A stretch of 27,813 nucleotides of DNA from positions 1 through 27,813 of the IMG/VR virus record IMGVR_UViG_3300012936_002756; one strand, given 5' to 3'. Under the pieces are notes generated by a model. The model saw only the letters and a list, made by a program, of their open reading frames with translations. It did not search any database and was not told where the DNA came from. Source of the DNA: a virus. Both the position numbers and the translations under genes were made by a program. Each line of letters begins with the position of its first letter. Positions within the stretch are counted from its first letter, which is position 1. Shown here in pieces: positions 1 to 27,724 of this stretch.

Positions 1-758
1 CTACACTTTCAACAGGTATATTTGCAGGCATAGGTATAATCTATGGGCATGAACTATCTCACACCAAAGGCATTGCATTTGTAATAAGTCGTTGGATGAT
101 GGGACTATCAGGTTCAGCACATTTCTGTTATGCTCATGTGTACAATCATCACTTGGAACTAGCAAGTGAAGATGATCCTGCAACTGCACCTCGTGGACGT
201 GATCTATATTCACACTTTATCAAATCACACTTAGGACAATCTAAGTTCCTGTTTGAAATGGAGAAAGGTAGATTGAAACGTTTAGGTAAACCTTTCTTAT
301 CCGTAGGTAATAGATGGATAAGAGGTTACATGATGAGTGTACCTACACTTGCATTATTCTTTTATGCAGGTGGTTGGTTAGGAGTTGCATGTATCGGACT
401 TGTTTGGTTAATATCAAACTTCGAACTTGAAGCACTTAACTATCTAGAACACTATGGTTTGATTCGTGTTAAAAGCGAGCCAATAGACTATAGACATTCC
501 TGGGATAACTCAACATTATTCACAAGCTGGTTCTTCATTGAGATTGGTCGCCAGGCTGATCATCATGACAGAGGTGAGACACACTTCTGGGAACTAGATG
601 AAGTAGGTGCACCTAACACAGGTGTAGGTTACTTTACACTCTTTGCGTTAGCATTGATACCTCCCGTGTTTGATCGCTTTATGAAAAAGCATTTAGACAA
701 TTGGGATAAAAACTTTGCAACCGAAGCAGAAAGAGAAATAGCAAAAACATTTGCATAA
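1..758 (+). CDS. AlkB-family membrane di-iron hydroxylase (5' end outside window)
   Basis: The reading frame is open from the left edge, so the true start lies outside; 251 residues are visible. Three histidine clusters of the integral-membrane di-iron family are present: GHELSHTKG near bases 45-71, AHVYNHHLELASEDDPA near 132-182 (alkane hydroxylases have EHxxGHH followed by a similar A-x-x-EDPA stretch), and GRQADHHDRGETHFWE near 547-594. NYLEHYGL near 439-462 matches the fourth conserved box of alkane 1-monooxygenases. Hydrophobic segments alternate with these boxes, as expected for an inner-membrane enzyme that hydroxylates a hydrophobic substrate with O2 and electrons from rubredoxin or ferredoxin. 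The substrate cannot be told. No rubredoxin gene is visible. A terminator follows directly, so the gene ends its transcript. A xylene-monooxygenase or desaturase-like relative remains possible. Confidence 0.82.
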   Translation, partial: TLSTGIFAGIGIIYGHELSHTKGIAFVISRWMMGLSGSAHFCYAHVYNHHLELASEDDPATAPRGRDLYSHFIKSHLGQSKFLFEMEKGRLKRLGKPFLSVGNRWIRGYMMSVPTLALFFYAGGWLGVACIGLVWLISNFELEALNYLEHYGLIRVKSEPIDYRHSWDNSTLFTSWFFIEIGRQADHHDRGETHFWELDEVGAPNTGVGYFTLFALALIPPVFDRFMKKHLDNWDKNFATEAEREIAKTFA

Positions 759-1914: not shown

Positions 1915-2874
1915 TTGAAAATGAAAATCATTACCGGAAATGCTAATCCTAAATTAGCACAAGAGATCGCCGAACATTGTTTTAGTGATCTTGTCCCAGC
2001 CAAAGTTACAACATTTGCAGACGGAGAATCTAGCGTAGAGTTTTTAGAAAACGTTAGAGGAGAAGACGTTTTTATTATCCAAAGCACAAGCCAACCTGTC
2101 AACGACAGTCTTATGGAACTAATGGTAATGATTGATGCGGCACGTAGATCAAGTGCTAGTCGTATTACAGCAGTTATTCCTTACTATGGTTATGCTAGAC
2201 AGGATCGTAAGAGTGCTAGTCGTACTCCTATTACAGCAAAACTAGTTGCTAACCTATTAACAACATCTGGTGCAGATAGAATCTTAACTATGGATTTACA
2301 CGCAGGACAGATACAGGGCTTCTTTGATATTCCTGTAGATGATTTAACAAGTCGTGTAATATTTGCAAAAGACATCAGACGTAGTATTGGTATTATTGAT
2401 GACCCAGAAGTTAATCAAGCAGGCACAGTATTTGTATCTCCAGATGCAGGTGGTGCAGTAAGAGCTCGTAAGTTTGCTGATATGTTTACAGGTGACATTG
2501 CTATTGTAGATAAAATGCGTCCTGAAGCAGGTAAGTCAGAAGTAATGAATTTGATTGGAGATGTTAAAGGTCGTCATGCTATTCTAGTAGACGACATTAT
2601 TGATAGTGGCGGAACACTTTGCAACGCAGCCAAAGCAATTATGGATGCAGGTGCTCTTAGTGTACGTGCATACATCACGCATGGTGTACTATCAGGTGAA
2701 GCATGTCAGAAGATTGAAAAGAGTGTGCTTGATGAATTAGTTGTTACAGATACTATTTCAAATCGTTGTCCTAAGAACTGTAAGAAAACACGTCAGGTAA
2801 GTGTAGCACCTTTGTTTGGTGAAGCAATGCGTAGAATAACTAACGAAGAATCAGTTAGCAGCCTGTTTGTATAA
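1915..2874 (+). CDS. prs: Ribose-phosphate pyrophosphokinase (PRPP synthetase)
   Basis: Makes PRPP from ribose 5-phosphate and ATP, for purine, pyrimidine and NAD synthesis. At 319 residues it is full length for the class I family (about 310-320). Diagnostic motifs are present: YYGYARQDRK in the ATP-binding loop, DLHAGQIQGFFD, and the PRPP-binding loop ILVDDIIDSGGT. The TTG at 1915 lies seven bases after AAGGAAGGA and is the better start; the ATG at 1921 would be 13 bases away and give a protein two residues shorter. It has its own sigma70-like promoter. Its last 24 bases overlap the end of hemB on the other strand. Some large phages carry prs for NAD salvage, but no nadV is in view, so here it more likely supports nucleotide supply with nrdAB. 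Confidence 0.95.
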   Translation: MKMKIITGNANPKLAQEIAEHCFSDLVPAKVTTFADGESSVEFLENVRGEDVFIIQSTSQPVNDSLMELMVMIDAARRSSASRITAVIPYYGYARQDRKSASRTPITAKLVANLLTTSGADRILTMDLHAGQIQGFFDIPVDDLTSRVIFAKDIRRSIGIIDDPEVNQAGTVFVSPDAGGAVRARKFADMFTGDIAIVDKMRPEAGKSEVMNLIGDVKGRHAILVDDIIDSGGTLCNAAKAIMDAGALSVRAYITHGVLSGEACQKIEKSVLDELVVTDTISNRCPKNCKKTRQVSVAPLFGEAMRRITNEESVSSLFV

Positions 2875-3705
2875 TTCCCTAGCACCGTAAGTAATCATAA
2901 AGTCAGCACCAGCACGTTTAAAAACATCATGTGTTTCTTTTAGTAGTTCTGGAACTAACCAAGTGTTTCGTTGTAAGCCTATGTATTCGCCGCTTGTTTG
3001 ATATACTCCGACAGGTGCTTGATACTTAGTTGCTTCTTTAATAGGCATAATAAGATCAATGCTAGTCATGCCAGGCTTAACCATTAAACTGTTAGCACCA
3101 TCATTAAAATACTTTACACTTCTAGCAATAGCAAGTTCTCTATCGTTTACATCTAATTGATAACTTCTATGTATACCTTTTTCAACTCCAATAGTTTGTC
3201 TAAAGCCATCATAGAATTGTGATCTAAACTTAGTTGAATAGCTCATTACATTTACTTTGTTAATATGTTCTTTAATATTCTTTACAGTATTATCTTGGCA
3301 GTCACTAGGTGCTAAAACATCTGCTCCGGCATCATGTACAATCTGTGCTTGATTAAACAGTTGCTCATCTGTTTTATTTGTATCCTCAGGATAGCAACAA
3401 TGCCCGTCTAGCGTAGTAGAACATAAACATATATCAACATGCAGGTTTACTTTATCTCCGTGTGCTGCTTTGATTTCACTAACAACACGTTTGTTTAGAT
3501 CCCAATCAGGTAAGTCTACTCTATCAGGCATTACAAATATTAAAATGTCTTTGACACCTAAAGCAATATCTCTTCCAATAGTATCTACTGCACCTTTAAC
3601 AGACCACGGGTGATTGTCATTACCAAGAACACATTGCTTGGATGCAAGTACCCAATCATCTCCGTTGCTTTGATTATTAATAAAGTAAGGTTGTATTAGT
3701 TTCAT
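2851..3705 (-). CDS. hemB: Delta-aminolevulinic acid dehydratase (porphobilinogen synthase)
   Basis: Condenses two 5-aminolevulinate molecules to porphobilinogen in the cytoplasm. Both active-site lysines are visible: K159 in MSYSTKF and K210 in SLMVKPG, the latter forming the Schiff base in known enzymes. The zinc-type cysteine triad is intact: DICLC (C93, C95) and GHC (C103). At 284 residues it is about 40 shorter than usual (about 325); what is missing is the N-terminal arm, which in cellular enzymes wraps a neighbouring subunit and builds the octamer. It is the last gene of the hemF-hemC-hemE-hemB operon; its start overlaps the hemE stop as ATGA. Its 3' end overlaps prs, with no terminator seen between them. 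Confidence 0.95.
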   Translation of the reverse strand: MKLIQPYFINNQSNGDDWVLASKQCVLGNDNHPWSVKGAVDTIGRDIALGVKDILIFVMPDRVDLPDWDLNKRVVSEIKAAHGDKVNLHVDICLCSTTLDGHCCYPEDTNKTDEQLFNQAQIVHDAGADVLAPSDCQDNTVKNIKEHINKVNVMSYSTKFRSQFYDGFRQTIGVEKGIHRSYQLDVNDRELAIARSVKYFNDGANSLMVKPGMTSIDLIMPIKEATKYQAPVGVYQTSGEYIGLQRNTWLVPELLKETHDVFKRAGADFMITYGARELYKQAAN

Positions 3706-4679
3706 TCAAAACGTTCCCTAACCATATCTACAAAAAGTTTTACATTCTCTTCTGGTGTTTCTTTATGTATACCGTGTCCTAGTCCACATATCCAACCAGT
3801 TCTATCAATATGCTCCATTTCATCTAGCCACTGACTAATTTCTTCTTTTACATAAGATTTTGGAGTCATCATTAACTTCTCATCAAAGTTACCTTGAATG
3901 AAGCCGTCTTGGTATTTTTTAAATGTTCTTTGTATATCAACTGTGCTGTCAATACCTATACCTGCCCAACCCATTCTATAAAGAGTAGGTAAGCATTTGT
4001 GATTTAGATGTTGTGTGTAATAACCTGTATCAGTTTGTATTAATGGTTGTAGTATATTAACGTAGTGTGTTTTAAAGAATGCTTCGCTCATGTTACCTAC
4101 ACCACTATCAAGTATCATAACTTTCTCTGCACCTGCTTCTAGTTGTAAGTTTATGTTTCTAGTTAACACAGGAACAATAACTTCTTCCATATACGCTGCC
4201 TTCCATTTCAAATCCATGTTAGGCTTTTTACCTGTAGCATAGTTTAGCAAAGTCCATGGCCCACCAACAAAGCCTATTAGGCTTTTTGATTTGTGTAGTT
4301 TCTCTCTAGTTGCAGCAACAGCCACCCTTTGAAAATCCATGTGTTCTACTGCACGTGAAATATCTTTATGTTCTTTATAGTTTTCCTCATCAATATAATA
4401 ATCAAATTGTGGACCTGGTGCAAACTTTAATGGCACACCTAAGCCTTCAATAGGAAATAGTATATCACTGAAAAGGATTGCAATATCAAAATCAAACTGA
4501 TCAATAGGAAGCATTGCTACATCAGCAGCAACCCTTGGAAGTTTACACATTTGCTCAAACGTGAAACTTTGTTTCATATCCATGTATGGTTTTTGATATC
4601 TTCCTGCTTGCCTCATCATCCATATCGGAGGACAAGACTGTTCTACCCTATTACAGGCATTCGTAAATTTTTCATTCAT
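3702..4679 (-). CDS. hemE: Uroporphyrinogen decarboxylase
   Basis: Removes four carboxyl groups from uroporphyrinogen III to give coproporphyrinogen III, the step that commits tetrapyrroles to heme or chlorophyll rather than siroheme or cobalamin. The signature RQAGRY is at residues 23-28, the substrate-binding aspartate is in FSDIL (D72), and GGPWTL, GIDSTVDI, QGNFD and HGIHKETPEENV match conserved blocks. In the usual DSWxG block the sequence reads DSGVG, so the tryptophan is replaced. At 325 residues it is slightly short for the family (about 340-355). Both ends overlap neighbours by four bases (ATGA with hemC upstream and hemB downstream), which implies translational coupling. Confidence 0.95.
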   Translation of the reverse strand: MNEKFTNACNRVEQSCPPIWMMRQAGRYQKPYMDMKQSFTFEQMCKLPRVAADVAMLPIDQFDFDIAILFSDILFPIEGLGVPLKFAPGPQFDYYIDEENYKEHKDISRAVEHMDFQRVAVAATREKLHKSKSLIGFVGGPWTLLNYATGKKPNMDLKWKAAYMEEVIVPVLTRNINLQLEAGAEKVMILDSGVGNMSEAFFKTHYVNILQPLIQTDTGYYTQHLNHKCLPTLYRMGWAGIGIDSTVDIQRTFKKYQDGFIQGNFDEKLMMTPKSYVKEEISQWLDEMEHIDRTGWICGLGHGIHKETPEENVKLFVDMVRERFE

Positions 4680-5497
4680 ATAAGTTTTGTTCCTAGTTGC
4701 TCACCTAATTCGATATAGTTTTCTTTCTTACCAATTACTTCACTATACTTATCAGTTTCGAAGTTGTGAGCTTCCATCATTAAGTAGTCGCCAACAATAC
4801 TAGATATGCAACCAACAGCAGTATGGCAGTCGCCGTTTATAACTTCTAGCATCTTGCGTTCAGCCATTGCACATTTATATGTGTCTGGGTGCGAAGATGT
4901 AGATAATAAATTACTTGCAGAACTTTTCTTTCTTGTTTGTAATGCAATAACTCCTTGCCCAACAGCAGGAAACATTTCTCTAATGGTAAACGTTTTTGTT
5001 ATCTTATCTTGTAACCCTAATGCTTCAAGACCTGCAACAGCAAGTAAAATAGCATCATACTGTCCGCTTTCTACTTTAGAAATACGTGTATCAATGTTTC
5101 CTCTAATAGGAACAATTTCTGCTTGTGGATATAATTTTTTTAGTTGTGCAATTCTACGAGGACTACCTGTTCCTATTTTTGCTCCTGGCTTATCAGGATT
5201 ACCAATTACACAATCTCTAGGATCATTACGTTTTAATACTGCTGATATCTCAAGTACATCATCTGAATCTCTTGTTAAGTCTTTTAAACTGTGAACAGCA
5301 ATATCAATTTCTTTGTCTATTAATTTTTGTTCGATGGCTTTACAGAATACTCCTTTGCCACCCATTTCTAATATAGGAGTGTCTGGATTTATTTCTGCTT
5401 CAGTTGTTACTGTAACTATCTCAGCATTGTTAATTAGAGCTGCTGCCCTACTTGCATACTCCAATGCTAGTTTACTTCCTCTGACACCTATTTTCAT
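4676..5497 (-). CDS. hemC: Porphobilinogen deaminase (hydroxymethylbilane synthase)
   Basis: Polymerises four porphobilinogens into hydroxymethylbilane using a covalent dipyrromethane cofactor. The cofactor cysteine is C224 in NGDCHTAVGC, matching GGCQVPIG in cellular enzymes. The catalytic aspartate is in AVHSLKDL (D73), and GTGSPRR, IRGNIDTR and AVGQG match the substrate-binding blocks. At 273 residues it is about 35 shorter than typical; the loss is in the C-terminal domain. The start overlaps the stop of the 25-residue membrane ORF (ATGA). No hemD (uroporphyrinogen III synthase) follows, although hemC-hemD is a common bacterial pairing, so the product must be cyclised by a host enzyme or by one outside this window. 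Confidence 0.94.
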   Translation of the reverse strand: MKIGVRGSKLALEYASRAAALINNAEIVTVTTEAEINPDTPILEMGGKGVFCKAIEQKLIDKEIDIAVHSLKDLTRDSDDVLEISAVLKRNDPRDCVIGNPDKPGAKIGTGSPRRIAQLKKLYPQAEIVPIRGNIDTRISKVESGQYDAILLAVAGLEALGLQDKITKTFTIREMFPAVGQGVIALQTRKKSSASNLLSTSSHPDTYKCAMAERKMLEVINGDCHTAVGCISSIVGDYLMMEAHNFETDKYSEVIGKKENYIELGEQLGTKLI

Positions 5498-5571
5498 TTT
5501 CTAACCTTCTTTATAATCCAAGCAATGAATGCTAAGATAGCCGCAGTCAATGCACCTATCCCAACGTTCAC
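5494..5571 (-). CDS. 25-residue membrane micropeptide inside the heme operon
   Basis: This GTG-started frame fills the only gap in the heme operon. Its GTG overlaps the hemF stop (GTGA) and its TGA overlaps the hemC start (ATGA), the same 4-base coupling used by the other genes in the operon. The peptide starts MNVGIGALTAAILAFIAWII and ends KKVRK: one hydrophobic helix of about 18 residues followed by a strongly basic tail, so an N-out/C-in single-pass topology is expected. I know of no family for it. The exact fit between two stop/start overlaps is the main evidence that it is real. It could recruit heme enzymes to the membrane or modulate a host membrane enzyme of the pathway; both ideas are guesses. 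It could also be only a coupling device that carries ribosomes from hemF to hemC. Confidence 0.6.
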   Translation of the reverse strand: MNVGIGALTAAILAFIAWIIKKVRK

Positions 5572-6386
5572 GGCCAACTCACATCTGGCGGTAAGCTCAT
5601 TAATATTGCTTCCATGTTGCCGCCTGTTTTAAAACCAAACTTAGTTCCTCTATCATATAATAAGTTAAACTCTACATATCGCCCACGTTTGATTTTTTGT
5701 ATATTTTTATGTTCATCAGTATAGTTGTTGTTCATGTAATTAATTGCAGTTGTTCTAACAACATCTGCAAATCCAGTACCTAAACGCATTACAAATTCAA
5801 AGTCCATATCTTTAGGATCGTAATACTCAAAGAACAATCCTCCTATACCTCTTGTTTCTTTTCTATGAGGCAAGTAAAAGTATTCATCACATGCTTTACT
5901 AAACTTATCGTACCAAGTTGCATCATATGTGTCACAAATCTTTTTAAGGTCTTTATGATATCTAATCTTAAATGTTTCGTTATCCAAGCAAGGTGTTAAA
6001 TCCATACCCCCACCAAACCATTCTTTCTCATGTGTTTTAAGATATCTTGTATTAAAGTGCATCGCAGGCACCCAAGGATTAGTAGGGTGTAATACTACAC
6101 TTATACCTGTGGCATAATACTGTCTATTATCGTCAGTTGTGCCAGGAATCTCTTTTGCGAATTTAGGATCAAACTCTCCTGTTACGCAAGAGTAATTTAC
6201 TGTACCTTTTTCAAATACATTTCCACGTATAACTTTGTGTGTTTGAGTCCAGCCTTCTCTGCTAGAATGTCCACCTTCTTCCATTTTAATAGGATTGTTG
6301 GGTGTAAATCGTGCTTCTACTTCATTTATGTTATCTTCTATGATTTGCGCAAGATTTGCAAACCATTCAGTATACATTGTGTTCAT
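5568..6386 (-). CDS. hemF: Oxygen-dependent coproporphyrinogen III oxidase
   Basis: Converts coproporphyrinogen III to protoporphyrinogen IX using O2, with no metal or cofactor. Diagnostic blocks are GGGMDLTPC, HRKETRGIGGLFFEYYD, RGRYVEFNLLYDRGT and GFKTGGNMEAILMSLPP, ending in VSWP as in family members that end near LVRW. The length of 272 fits the lower part of the family range (about 280-310), with a short N-terminus. It is the first gene of the operon. A TAAATA box (6392-6397) lies exactly five bases before the ATG and no Shine-Dalgarno sequence is seen, so a leaderless late mRNA is predicted. An in-frame ATG three codons later is an alternative start. Confidence 0.95.
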   Translation of the reverse strand: MNTMYTEWFANLAQIIEDNINEVEARFTPNNPIKMEEGGHSSREGWTQTHKVIRGNVFEKGTVNYSCVTGEFDPKFAKEIPGTTDDNRQYYATGISVVLHPTNPWVPAMHFNTRYLKTHEKEWFGGGMDLTPCLDNETFKIRYHKDLKKICDTYDATWYDKFSKACDEYFYLPHRKETRGIGGLFFEYYDPKDMDFEFVMRLGTGFADVVRTTAINYMNNNYTDEHKNIQKIKRGRYVEFNLLYDRGTKFGFKTGGNMEAILMSLPPDVSWP

Positions 6387-7023: not shown

Positions 7024-7257
7024 ATGGAAATCTTAAACAAAGTAAAAGGCTGGGCCTCTGCAATTACTGAAGTAGGTGTTTCATTCATCGCTTTAGGCAT
7101 TGTGCTTGAAGTCTTATTCAACGGGCAGAACATTCCGTTCTGGCCAAACATCAGCGTAGTAGACAATATTACTGGAATGATAACAGCGTTATCTGCACAG
7201 GGCTTAGTTGGACTAGTTGCTGTTTGGGTGTTATATCATATATACAATCGCAAGTAA
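7024..7257 (+). CDS. Small two-helix membrane protein (77 residues)
   Basis: The ATG at 7024 follows AAAGGAGATAACCAAC, a strong ribosome binding site; a TTG at 6988 in the same frame has none and is rejected. Two hydrophobic helices are visible, around residues 12-32 (ITEVGVSFIALGIVLEVLF) and 50-72 (up to VGLVAVWVLYHIY), joined by a Pro/Trp-rich loop (NIPFWPNISV), with a basic end (NRK). It has its own terminator (7281-7319). The size and topology would suit a holin or another host-membrane protein, but there is no lysis cassette around it, so I leave the function open. Confidence 0.75.
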   Translation: MEILNKVKGWASAITEVGVSFIALGIVLEVLFNGQNIPFWPNISVVDNITGMITALSAQGLVGLVAVWVLYHIYNRK

Positions 7258-7280
7258 AATCTATAACACTTAGTAATGTT

Positions 7281-7319
7281 ATGACAGAGCCGTCTTGGCG
7301 GACAGCTCTGTCATTTTTT
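7281..7319 (+). terminator. Strong Rho-independent terminator
   Basis: A ten-pair perfect stem (ATGACAGAGC with GCTCTGTCAT), with further pairing inside, is followed by TTTTTT. It ends the plus-strand unit and lies directly against the end of the converging minus-strand mini-gene operon. Confidence 0.85.
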
Positions 7320-7518
7320 ATTTGACTTTCAAATTCGATGGATTATATTGTTCACCATTATAACCTGGATATGTTTTATCTTCAACTCCAAAGTTACAAC
7401 TAGCAACAATTAATAAAAATGCAATAGCGGCATAAGTTGTACGTTTCGACCACAGTATGAAATTAGCAAACGCTTTCTCAGCCTGTGCTTGAGCCGTCGC
7501 CCTTACATCACTTTCCAT
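7318..7518 (-). CDS. Small membrane protein or lipoprotein (66 residues)
   Basis: Last gene of the minus-strand mini-gene chain. An amphipathic N-terminal part (residues 1-27) leads into a hydrophobic stretch (TTYAAIAFLLIVASC). LLIVASC resembles a lipobox with C41 as the modified residue, although a 25-residue N-terminal region is long for a lipoprotein signal. The C-terminal 25 residues are polar and Tyr/Pro/Asn-rich. A small lipoprotein could be an outer-membrane lysis partner, but no inner partner is adjacent. It could equally be a single-pass inner-membrane protein. The family is not recognised. Confidence 0.6.
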   Translation of the reverse strand: MESDVRATAQAQAEKAFANFILWSKRTTYAAIAFLLIVASCNFGVEDKTYPGYNGEQYNPSNLKVK

Positions 7519-7555
7519 TTATCCATTCAGCTTCGTCTTCGGTGTACGGCCACAT
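7508..7555 (-). CDS. 15-residue micro-ORF in the mini-gene chain
   Basis: Encodes MWPYTEDEAEWINGK. Its ATG overlaps the TAA of the 83-residue gene (TAATG) and its end overlaps the start of the 66-residue gene by 11 bases. It may be a real peptide or a translational link. The acidic, Trp-rich composition is not random-looking, but the length makes the call weak. Confidence 0.35.
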   Translation of the reverse strand: MWPYTEDEAEWINGK

Positions 7556-7806
7556 TATGCATGTCCTTTCCAAAATGCTACAGTCTTACCTCTAAAGTAA
7601 TGATCGCCTGGCTCATAGTTTGCTTTAGCTTTCCTTACTCTTTCCAATCTTGCGATTGCTTTTCGTTTGACAGTTTGTAGTCGATGTTGTTCTTTAAGCA
7701 AGCCTTCTGATAGATCCGGTCTTCCTTGCAGACGCATTAAGTTTGCTGCTCTACCGTATCCAGCAATTTCTAAATTGTTATACAGTTTTCTTAGCATCAA
7801 CATCAC
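7555..7806 (-). CDS. Small basic protein related to its DUF1127-type neighbours (83 residues)
   Basis: A basic, helical protein. GYGRAANLMRLQGRPDLSEGLL (near residues 16-37) resembles GRSRAANELARMGYYDQAKKLM in the preceding gene, so the two probably descend from one duplicated unit common in alphaproteobacterial DUF1127-like small proteins. The first ATG gives a 29-base overlap with the upstream gene; ATG codons one and three codons later are alternative starts. Function unknown; a high Arg/Lys content in the middle (VKRKAIARLERVRKAKAN) could suit RNA binding. Confidence 0.6.
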   Translation of the reverse strand: MMLMLRKLYNNLEIAGYGRAANLMRLQGRPDLSEGLLKEQHRLQTVKRKAIARLERVRKAKANYEPGDHYFRGKTVAFWKGHA

Positions 7807-8008
7807 TTCTCTCCGTCATTAGTTTTTTAGCCTGATCGTAGTATCCCATACGAGCAAGTTCATTAGCAGCTCTAGAACGACCTGCTGTTTCACCGAAAGC
7901 AATTGTACCTACCCATAACGTAAACAAAGCGTTACGAATTACAGTACATGCTTTACATGTGAAGTTCCATGTAGTTTGTTTAAATTCAATCGCAGTCATT
8001 ATACCCAA
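7778..8008 (-). CDS. DUF1127-operon small protein (76 residues)
   Basis: The first half is hydrophobic with three cysteines (TCKACTVIRNALFTLWVGTI); the second half carries GRSRAANELARMGYYDQAK, a motif I associate with small alphaproteobacterial proteins that accompany DUF1127. It overlaps the DUF1127 gene by 10 bases and the next gene by up to 29, so it belongs to a tightly coupled chain. The function is unknown. The CxxC pair (TCKAC) could bind metal. Confidence 0.6.
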   Translation of the reverse strand: MGIMTAIEFKQTTWNFTCKACTVIRNALFTLWVGTIAFGETAGRSRAANELARMGYYDQAKKLMTERSDVDAKKTV

Positions 8009-8259
8009 CCTCTTAAATTCTGATTTGTCTTTGCAGCCATTCTATTATCTTGGAATGTGCCTCTAGCAATACTTTCGATATCGCTACGGCCAATTCCTAA
8101 ATCTTTTAGTTCATGGTCTGTAAGGTTACGTAATTCTCTACGAGTTGTTGCAATCATAGCCTTGCGGGCTCTGTTGCGTCTCCATTGTCTAACTAAATCC
8201 ACAAGCCCTTCTAAAGCATCTTGCAGTAAGTGTGATACTGTCATAATCGCTTGTGTCAT
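7999..8259 (-). CDS. DUF1127 (YjiS-like) protein, 86 residues
   Basis: The block TRRELRNLTDHELKDLGIGR followed by SDIESIARG is the DUF1127 signature; family members are small Arg-rich proteins, frequent in alphaproteobacteria, where some bind RNA and affect phosphate, stress or sRNA-linked regulation. An Arg-rich helix (VRQWRRNRARKA) precedes the motif. The ATG overlaps the stop of the upstream gene by one base (TAATG). Presence in a phage-like context suggests that the phage uses a host-type regulator; which target it has cannot be told. Confidence 0.85.
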   Translation of the reverse strand: MTQAIMTVSHLLQDALEGLVDLVRQWRRNRARKAMIATTRRELRNLTDHELKDLGIGRSDIESIARGTFQDNRMAAKTNQNLRGWV

Positions 8260-25898: not shown

Positions 25899-26954
25899 AT
25901 GCCACCACGTAATCACGTTAACTGGTTAAAGAAACCAGTAGTAGAATCAATTAGTAGCACAGCCTACAACAATCCAAAAATATTTGCACAAGAGCAAGAA
26001 CAGATCTTTAAGAAGGTATGGGTACCTATGTGTCATATAAGTGAAATGTATGAACTTGGTAACTTTAGAACAACACAGATAGCAGGTGTGAATGTTATTG
26101 CGTACAACACAGGCGATAGTGTTCGAGCATATCGAAACTACGGAATTAATCAACCAAGCGGCACACTTGCCGCACCAATAGTAACAGTTGAACCACAACT
26201 ACATTGTGAAGTAAAGCATGGTGGTATGGTATGGGTAACACTTAATCCTAATCCTACACAGAGTGTAGAAGAATGGACAGCAGGTGCATTTGATTGTATC
26301 GCTGATGCTATTGACACAGAAGAGATGGAAGTATTTCATTACCACAAAGCAATTATAGATACAAACTATAAACTGTGGCATGATACAAACAGTGAATTCT
26401 ATCATGATTTCATGCACTACTTCAATAGAGTAAGTGGATTCAATGACGAATACTTTGCACGTAAGAACATACCTTTTGATAACGGACATGTTAATGTAAG
26501 TTCGTTCACTGTTAACTATGAAGAGTACGAAGGCTTTGAAGATAGAGGAGAACTTAGTTTTCCTAACTTGCCTCCTAACCAATGGTATATGGTTGACCTA
26601 TTTCCTGGATTTAACTTTAACCTACGAGGCAGTGCTTACCGTTCGGATAGTGTAACGCCATTAAGTTGTAATCAAGTTCTTATAGAGTTTAGAGGTTACG
26701 GCCTACGCAAAGATACTAAAGAAGAAAGACTTACACGTATCAAACATCACAACAGCATATGGGGACCTTTTGGACGTAATCTACACGAAGACCTAATTGG
26801 TGTAGCAGGACAAGGTACAACCATGCGTGAAGGTACAGAAGCAAGACGCATACTACATGGTAGACACGAGAATGGAACTATACATGATGAAGTTGGTATG
26901 CGCCATTACTACAGCGAATGGGGCAAGTACTTAGATGTTGACCCGTATCAGTAA
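25899..26954 (+). CDS. Ring-hydroxylating oxygenase alpha-subunit homologue lacking the Rieske motif (351 residues)
   Basis: The N-terminal region follows the family pattern (FAQEQEQIFKKVWVPMCHIS, ELGNFRTTQIAGVNVIAY, SVRAYRN), but where normal proteins have C-x-H-R and, about 17 residues later, C-x-x-H, this one reads NYGINQPSGTLAAPIVTVEP and goes straight to HGGMVWVTLNP. The cluster-binding loops are deleted. The catalytic mononuclear-iron site appears intact: NYKLWHDTNSEFYHDFMH supplies H169 and H173 (spacing three residues instead of the usual four), and NLHEDLIGVAGQG supplies the facial aspartate (D298). Without the Rieske cluster there is no internal electron donor, so it may be an iron protein with a new electron source, a ligand binder or a decoy subunit. 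Substrate unknown. Confidence 0.82.
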   Translation: MPPRNHVNWLKKPVVESISSTAYNNPKIFAQEQEQIFKKVWVPMCHISEMYELGNFRTTQIAGVNVIAYNTGDSVRAYRNYGINQPSGTLAAPIVTVEPQLHCEVKHGGMVWVTLNPNPTQSVEEWTAGAFDCIADAIDTEEMEVFHYHKAIIDTNYKLWHDTNSEFYHDFMHYFNRVSGFNDEYFARKNIPFDNGHVNVSSFTVNYEEYEGFEDRGELSFPNLPPNQWYMVDLFPGFNFNLRGSAYRSDSVTPLSCNQVLIEFRGYGLRKDTKEERLTRIKHHNSIWGPFGRNLHEDLIGVAGQGTTMREGTEARRILHGRHENGTIHDEVGMRHYYSEWGKYLDVDPYQ

Positions 26955-27021
26955 ACGTTGGTTTAAACTTTTAGATTGGGTATCAAGAGATGCCGGACCC
27001 AAACACATGGGTAGAAAATAA
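26935..27021 (+). CDS. Possible 28-residue basic peptide overlapping the oxygenase end
   Basis: Starts inside the last codons of the oxygenase in another frame (ATG at 26935) and encodes MLTRISKRWFKLLDWVSRDA with a basic end. An amphipathic, Arg/Trp-rich helix is likely. No ribosome binding site beyond the overlapping gene; support is weak. Confidence 0.3.
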   Translation: MLTRISKRWFKLLDWVSRDAGPKHMGRK

Positions 27022-27035
27022 TTTTCAAAAAACGG

Positions 27036-27066
27036 TTGACAAACCAATAATATGGTAGTATAAATA
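27036..27066 (+). promoter_or_regulatory. Overlapping sigma70-like and late promoters of the tmRNA-tRNA unit
   Basis: TTGACA (27036-27041), 17 bases, TATAAA (27059-27064); the same bases form TATAAATA (27059-27066). The predicted start is near 27072. Confidence 0.65.
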
Positions 27067-27071
27067 TAACT

Positions 27072-27340
27072 GTAACGTTGAAGCCAATCAACGACATATC
27101 GGACTCGGGGGCAGTACCCGACGCCTCCACCATAAGCACATTATTCTAATAGTTGGTAATGTTCTTATGATGGGGGCGAACTAGGATCGACGAGTGTATT
27201 AGAGAACGTGGAGTTACCGGTAGGCGATGACCGTAAATCAAGCAAAACTATAGACGCAAACGAAAACTTTGCTCTTGCTGCCTAGTTACTAGGTGACGGG
27301 GTTGGCAACTTACCTGGCAACAGAAAAGTTGCACCTTTAT
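27072..27340 (+). ncRNA. ssrA: Circularly permuted (two-piece) tmRNA
   Basis: The order is inverted relative to standard tmRNA. First comes the acceptor piece, with a T-arm-like CGGG-GGCAGTA-CCCG hairpin and the 3' end GCCTCCACCA at 27123-27132; then a 39-base spacer (27133-27171); then the coding piece starting GGGGGCGAAC at 27172. GGGGGC pairs with GCCTCC to rebuild the acceptor stem, and GTTGGC (27301-27306) can pair with GCCAAT (27083-27088) to join the pieces. The tag frame at 27256-27285 is GCA AAC GAA AAC TTT GCT CTT GCT GCC TAG, encoding ANENFALAA, preceded by TAGAC as in other tmRNAs. Permuted tmRNA is characteristic of alphaproteobacteria and some cyanobacteria and betaproteobacteria, so it points to the host lineage. 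The outer ends are approximate. Confidence 0.88.
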
Positions 27341-27347
27341 TGACAAA

Positions 27348-27421
27348 GGGTGAATGGTGTAGTGGTAACACGCCGGTCTCCAAAACCGTAGATTGAGGTT
27401 CGATTCCTTGTTCGCCTGCCA
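27348..27421 (+). tRNA. tRNA-Trp (anticodon CCA)
   Basis: A complete cloverleaf of 74 bases: acceptor GGGTGAA with TTCGCCT (two wobble pairs), D-arm GTGT-AGTGGTA-ACAC, anticodon loop CTCCAAA between CGGT and ACCG, T-arm TGAGG-TTCGATT-CCTTG, discriminator G and encoded CCA. The first anticodon-stem pair is mismatched (C-T), and the T-stem has wobble pairs. It follows the tmRNA without a visible promoter or terminator, so both are probably processed from one transcript. Confidence 0.9.
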
Positions 27422-27442: not shown

Positions 27443-27724
27443 ATGAATAAAGAAGAATACGACGAAATAGTAAAAAGAATCAATACCCTTATTGATAATC
27501 AGGTTCAGCCAGCAGTAGAACAGCACGGAGGCTTTATTAAATTTGAAGACTTTGATCAGTCAACAGGCCGTGTAAGTGTTTTACTACAAGGATCATGTTC
27601 TGGTTGTGCAAGTAGCACAGTAACACTCAAGATGGGTGTAGAGAACATGTTGAAACATTACATTCCAGAAGTAACAGGTGTAGACGGAATGGATGACCCC
27701 AACTTTAATAATCCATATTATTAA
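27443..27724 (+). CDS. NifU C-terminal (Nfu) domain Fe-S carrier (93 residues)
   Basis: The whole protein is one Nfu domain: INTLIDNQVQPAVEQHGGFI, VSVLLQGSCSGCASST with the cluster-binding CxxC (C52, C55), and LKMGVENMLKHYIPEV. Two such subunits hold a [4Fe-4S] cluster and pass it to target enzymes. Unlike bacterial NfuA it has no degenerate A-type domain. Likely clients in phage infection are host Fe-S enzymes; the Rieske-less oxygenase nearby does not look like a client. Confidence 0.93.
   Translation: MNKEEYDEIVKRINTLIDNQVQPAVEQHGGFIKFEDFDQSTGRVSVLLQGSCSGCASSTVTLKMGVENMLKHYIPEVTGVDGMDDPNFNNPYY

Follow-up and report, generated by a model that had tools for sequence, protein, structure and literature searches.

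The window, meaning the whole stretch of DNA analysed here, is a virus record of 27,813 nucleotides (27.8 kb). Its first gene is an ORF at positions 3-758 (+) that enters from the 5' edge of the contig and ends in a TAA stop at 756-758. It encodes the C-terminal 251 of about 354 residues of a Q-type membrane di-iron oxygenase of the AlkB/XylM superfamily. The contig edge cuts off about 103 N-terminal residues, and the window begins at residue 104 in the numbering of L006, a phage copy that is 96% identical to the window fragment and lies on a 107-kb contig. The missing N-terminus, whose recovery had been proposed in a preliminary description of this DNA, was supplied by full-length relatives (354 aa); most relatives in which the start codon region is present are about 354-365 aa long.

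The 251 oxygenase residues match Pfam FA_desaturase at 1.4e-27 and the AlkB structures 8sbb and 8f6t at 3.6e-26 and 5.4e-24, respectively, and the third-best PDB sequence match is at 0.08 only. Given the first three values, the likeness to the AlkB family is far beyond chance. No NCBIfam model and no PHROGs family fits the protein.

Just past the oxygenase stop lies a terminator-like hairpin with a T-run (GGGGGGTCGGAAACGGCCCCTT TTT; about 765-794, +, the hairpin itself spanning 765-786), found in a hairpin search that returned 7 terminator-like hairpins in the region versus 1.2 expected. The adjoining gene (860-1819, +) codes for a protein of 319 aa that matches nothing in Pfam or PHROG and whose relatives occur in 29 of the 80 best viral loci (out of 219).

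Further along the window, the genes for HemB, HemE, HemC and HemF are adjacent (2851-6386, -), and a DUF1127 small protein is encoded in this phage genome at 7999-8259 (-). A homologue of ring-hydroxylase alpha subunits (25899-26954, +; PF00848, 4.3e-05), initially described as Rieske-type, has no CxH...CxxH Rieske motif; the protein retains a His pair (HDFMH). Such a Rieske-less relative is present in several of these phages, for example at L007 9197-10270. A short protein with a NifU/NfuA C-terminal domain (27443-27724, +; PF01106, 1.8e-24), an Fe-S cluster scaffold, is encoded beside several iron enzymes.

The oxygenase gene in phage genomes

Relatives of the oxygenase are encoded on 219 IMG/VR contig stretches, usually in mid-genome; the best 80 of these make up the viral locus set. 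On viral contigs of up to 120 kb the gene is surrounded by phage genes. In one T4-like group it comes after the major capsid gene (L044, L050, L053 and L066, the last matching phrog_138 at 1e-170), at L081 it adjoins a head-tail adaptor gene (phrog_211), and at L252, L255, L281, L306 and L310 terminase, portal, major head or ribonucleotide reductase genes lie near it. Neck genes are also among its neighbours. Within the window's clade the median dN/dS is 0.11 and the maximum 0.19 (98 pairs); as judged from these ratios, the gene is under purifying selection and kept functional in phages. Its occurrence on so many contigs, its usual mid-genome location, its typical length of about 354 aa and the purifying selection together identify it as a real phage gene. 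The flanking phage genes and dN/dS thus bear out the original reading of a phage gene on a phage-like contig.

The same evidence bears on the possibility of an annotation artefact, in which a chimeric or contaminated contig ends in a bacterial gene that is mistaken for a viral one. The window copy is truncated at the end of its contig, and the AlkB matches in two 'phage' records turn out to be bacterial: both matches to 'Acinetobacter phage MD-2021a' (L162, which is CAKLQH020000011.1, and CAKLQF020000009.1) were rejected as mislabelled bacterial chromosomal DNA, the stretch read containing iscS, hupB, ppiD and alkB1, with alkB amid bacterial genes. However, the relatives on 219 viral contigs, the setting amid phage genes on long contigs and the membership in a phage-only clade make an artefact exceedingly improbable. 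Because the gene is whole inside long phage contigs, the edge position of the window copy does not reflect an assembly junction, and the artefact reading is refuted for the oxygenase family.

Many of the carriers are pelagimyophage-like phages with heme genes. The phage of L050 has a capsid protein that shares 79% identity with that of Pelagibacter phage Mosig, and the window NrdA is 72% identical to Mosig NrdA. The window also contains a permuted alphaproteobacterial tmRNA (RF01849, 143 bits, tag ANENFALAA) followed by a tRNA-Trp (27019-27421, +); an alphaproteobacterial tmRNA is a trait of Mosig/Melnitz-like phages (PMC9004378). A 5-aminolevulinate synthase (AlaS) gene is present on 11 of 16 oxygenase contigs, and on G001 and G003 there are genes for heme oxygenase and bilin reductase as well. 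Together with HemB, HemE, HemC and HemF, these genes cover a large part of the heme pathway in this phage lineage, which has in part been published (PMC11480375, PMC7029224); heme genes are already known in pelagimyophages (PMC7029224). In G001, radical-SAM-like (CxxxCxxC) and SPASM-like genes also form a long series (7009-29229), as judged by eye from its ORFs.

For a pelagiphage-like scaffold in the literature, which has FDBR, HemO and vAlaS, a 'fatty acid desaturase' found with cyanophage desaturase baits has been reported (PMC11480375). G001 and G003 carry the same three companions; since these are shared and AlaS is so frequent on oxygenase contigs, the published 'fatty acid desaturase' may belong to the Q-type family. 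A second, unrelated-looking FA_desaturase gene is present on one contig that also carries the Q-type oxygenase gene (G013, the contig of L040; 42593-43171), so both desaturase kinds occur in such phages. Cyanophage lipid desaturases are reportedly phage-borne proteins of Pfam FA_desaturase that have been proposed to act on lipids. No true carrier of the oxygenase family was found among the cultured phage records searched, those of cyanophages included, and for this reason the family is perhaps undescribed under such a name. Likewise, no description of a phage AlkB-like enzyme or of the glutamine variant was found in the literature searched, subscription papers lying mostly outside it.

Metal-binding site and predicted fold

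Four conserved boxes can be aligned (all on the + strand) with FtAlkB, the AlkB of Fontimonas. The first, HELSH (48-62; His codons 48-50 and 60-62), aligns with FtAlkB His137 and His141, and the second, HVYNHH (135-152; His 135-137, 147-149 and 150-152), with His167, His171 and His172. The EHYG box (447-452) provides the equivalents of Glu271 (447-449) and His272 (450-452). The last box, QADHH (552-566), begins with a glutamine (CAG, 552-554) and ends with two histidines (561-563 and 564-566). In FtAlkB, Fe1 is bound by His137, 141, 167, 172 and 314, and Fe2 by His171, 272, 311 and 315 plus Glu271 (PMC10113152); the glutamine stands where AlkB has the Fe2 ligand His311. The window oxygenase thus contains eight of the nine iron-binding histidines of AlkB and the glutamate. 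All four boxes had been said to match those of alkane hydroxylases; the boxes themselves are present, but the full ligand set is not, the last box reading QADHH instead of HSDHH. Loss of iron-binding histidines, which had been named as grounds against the assignment, extends to a single residue replaced by glutamine, the other eight being kept. Because one conserved iron ligand is a glutamine, the enzyme is not a canonical alkane 1-monooxygenase.

The glutamine and the remaining eight histidines are invariant in a 47-member alignment of viral and cellular sequences. The glutamate preceding HYG is invariant in 16 viral sequences and falls outside the strictly invariant list of the 47-member alignment. 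The last box of the Q-type clade can be written RQxDHH(D/V)RGET(H/Y)FWEL, to which the window copy conforms. A QxxHH box occurs naturally in front-end desaturases, and by analogy with that box the exchange of histidine for glutamine may tune Fe2.

The exchange could also have produced a catalytically altered or inactive homologue that is retained for a structural or iron-storage role, given that one of the nine histidines of AlkB, which have been termed invariant and indispensable (PMC10110569), is replaced across the clade. This is improbable, however, because all other ligands, the glutamate included, are invariant or nearly so in the 47 sequences, dN/dS is only about 0.11, and redox-partner genes lie beside bacterial copies. 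The conserved ligands, low dN/dS and adjoining redox-partner genes instead suggest a working metal site.

An AlphaFold2 model of the L006 protein, built on the 47-member alignment, has a mean pLDDT of 79 and a pTM of 0.84. The pLDDT falls below 50 at residues 280-287 and 291-297, around the last box, and because of this low confidence in the metal-site region the model does not reveal the geometry between glutamine and iron. In a Foldseek search the model matched 8f6t (TM 0.79, E 1.4e-12) and 8sbb (TM 0.78), the only two matches under E 0.001. VIA gave Z scores of 33.6 to 8f6t (344 residues aligned) and 30.4 to 8sbb; stearoyl-CoA desaturase SCD1 (6wf2), with which the Pfam FA_desaturase superfamily is shared, scored 4.3 over 164 residues. 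The Z scores of 10-11 that VIA gave for FtsHi motor chains are too low to be trusted in helical proteins. The predicted fold of the L006 protein is that of AlkB and essentially nothing else. Pfam, PDB sequence matches and the predicted fold all uphold the earlier assignment to an AlkB-type family.

Alkanes enter aerobic oxidation by way of AlkB. The phage enzyme has in common with FtAlkB (8f6t/8sbb) the six-helix fold, the four His boxes, the NYLEHYG motif with its glutamate and eight of nine histidines; it differs in the glutamine at His311, in an identity of only about 22-24%, in having no rubredoxin or AlkG fusion, and in that the redox genes by its Q-type bacterial relatives are of the [2Fe-2S] type. 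XylM belongs to the same superfamily (29% identity) and has a similar G.T.F(W/Y)EL tail past the last HH, but it has a histidine at the glutamine position (NHINHH) and a glutamine in place of the EHYG glutamate, and it lies outside the Q-type clade.

Bacterial relatives and origins

A genome scan found 147 bacterial relatives, of which 80 were kept; their identity to the query is 53-72% in the best segment, and nearly all belong to marine Gammaproteobacteria. Relatives occur in Methylophaga sulfidovorans, in kin of sulfur-oxidisers (Porisulfidus, Thiodiazotropha) and in SAR86, and the last box is Q-type in all scanned relatives in which it is complete and readable. The family was present in only one of 398 random Pseudomonadota genomes at E 1e-60 and is therefore not widespread; in the order to which L128's genome belongs, it was found in 5 of 18 genomes.

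The H-type relatives on plasmids (AlkB, XylM and a Polaromonas fusion) are about 30% identical and fall outside the Q-type clade. The nearest of those found on plasmids is WP_011797842.1 of Polaromonas naphthalenivorans (752 aa; E 6e-45), in which the oxygenase is fused to a [2Fe-2S] reductase and which adjoins genes for a GMC oxidoreductase, an aldehyde dehydrogenase and an acyl-CoA ligase. It differs from the phage enzyme in its HSHHH box, with histidine instead of glutamine, in its location on a bacterial plasmid and in its identity of about 30-34%.

Both the last-box motif and a maximum-likelihood tree of 85 viral and cellular rows place the window oxygenase inside the marine Q-type clade. 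The window's own clade comprises nine rows, all from phages, and is sister to ten marine gammaproteobacterial rows (99/94). The remaining phage rows are scattered in the tree, some near bacterial genes, and well-supported branches demand at least eight changes of viral label. For the viral copies as a whole, a common origin is rejected (AU p 5.8e-6), so unrelated phages took up the gene repeatedly; for the copies in T4-like phages, a single origin is compatible with the data (AU p 0.12). A phylogenetic position within a host clade, with the gene at a contig junction, had been raised as evidence against a viral gene; the gene does derive from marine Gammaproteobacteria, as is usual for metabolic genes of phages, but the window copy itself sits in a phage-only clade. 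The tmRNA suggests a history in alphaproteobacterial hosts, whereas the oxygenase is gammaproteobacterial.

Electron supply and possible function

Among the 80 bacterial loci kept out of 147, 23 contain a BenC/XylA-like [2Fe-2S]-FAD-NAD reductase or a stand-alone Fer2 protein. In part of the bacterial loci the Q-type copy is accompanied by an XylA-like [2Fe-2S] plus FAD/NAD reductase, the kind of partner that XylM has in XylA. In the same set of 80, GST-like proteins are encoded near the oxygenase in 30 loci, a FadL/TodX-like outer-membrane protein in nine and a truncated globin in eight. A divergent MerR regulator with FabA is found in 14-16 bacterial loci, a different set from the reductase loci, and a FA_hydroxylase gene recurs in nine loci of the bacterial sister of the window's clade.

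No [2Fe-2S] reductase or Fer2 gene was found beside the viral oxygenase gene. Rubredoxin, which had been suggested as an adjacent partner, was found neither next to the oxygenase gene nor on the contigs searched: PF00301 is absent from seven long viral contigs, although these are fragments and a host rubredoxin could serve, and the rubredoxin pattern is absent from the 315 sequences searched, the Rhodococcus control excepted. An adjacent ferredoxin, suggested likewise, exists at L044, where a 4Fe-4S (Fer4) ferredoxin gene lies directly upstream of the viral oxygenase gene (7250-7564) and is 52% identical to one on G002. Among 16 viral records, however, a [2Fe-2S] ferredoxin (adrenodoxin-like Fer2) is present only on G003 and a Fer4 ferredoxin only on G002 and G014, so there is no constant viral partner. 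Since most of the 16 records have no ferredoxin of the families searched, a host ferredoxin is assumed to act as partner. The compatibility of such a pair is not obvious, because the phage traits are alphaproteobacterial and the enzyme is nearest to gammaproteobacterial genes.

We give about an even chance to the reading that this auxiliary metabolic gene of phages encodes a [2Fe-2S]-driven membrane oxygenase of acyl or alkyl chains, likely acting on membrane lipids. The enzyme would reside in the inner membrane of the infected cell and would receive electrons from a [2Fe-2S]-type ferredoxin or reductase, supplied by host or phage, rather than from rubredoxin. With O2 it would introduce a hydroxyl group or a double bond into an acyl or alkyl chain, with membrane lipids or fatty acids as the most likely substrate, and membrane properties would be altered as a result. 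These substrates are favoured by the FabA and FA_hydroxylase genes of bacterial loci and by the fact that no alcohol or aldehyde dehydrogenase or acyl-CoA ligase gene was noticed beside the phage oxygenase gene. The idea that the enzyme opens a carbon source during infection accordingly finds no pathway support in the neighbourhood of the phage gene.

An external hydrophobic substrate is favoured by the FadL/TodX-like transporters, and the operons that contain them agree equally well with import and breakdown of an external hydrophobic compound and with a remodelling of lipids. The enzyme might then be a hydrocarbon hydroxylase that oxidises alkanes or some other small hydrophobic molecule and thereby feeds or detoxifies the infected cell; pentadecane and heptadecane, made by cyanobacteria, are examples of such alkanes. 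The AlkB/XylM fold, the bacterial operons with FadL/TodX-like protein, GST-like proteins and BenC/XylA-like reductase, and the catabolic genes near the H-type Polaromonas relative are in line with this function. It is nevertheless rather unlikely, as no genes for the further oxidation of alcohols or aldehydes were noticed next to the phage gene, one Fe2 histidine is missing, no rubredoxin was found, and many bacterial copies are without transporter and reductase genes and lie next to FabA instead.

Under the preferred reading of an oxygenase acting on membrane lipids, the presence of the gene in many marine phages suggests that they alter lipids or other hydrophobic molecules of their host cells. 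That T4-like and other marine phages have captured it more than once indicates an advantage during infection that recurs and probably concerns the membrane. More tentatively, the Q-type clade may represent a distinct, unnamed family with a site of eight histidines, one glutamine and one glutamate and a [2Fe-2S] electron supply, captured repeatedly by several unrelated kinds of marine phages for the remodelling of host membrane lipids. A large natural clade with glutamine at an Fe2 position, retained in phages and bacteria alike, offers a direct test of the role of that ligand, which could bear on the choice between hydroxylation and desaturation and on substrate range. If the proposal is true, the Q-type oxygenase would be the first phage system of the AlkB fold with a chemistry of its own.
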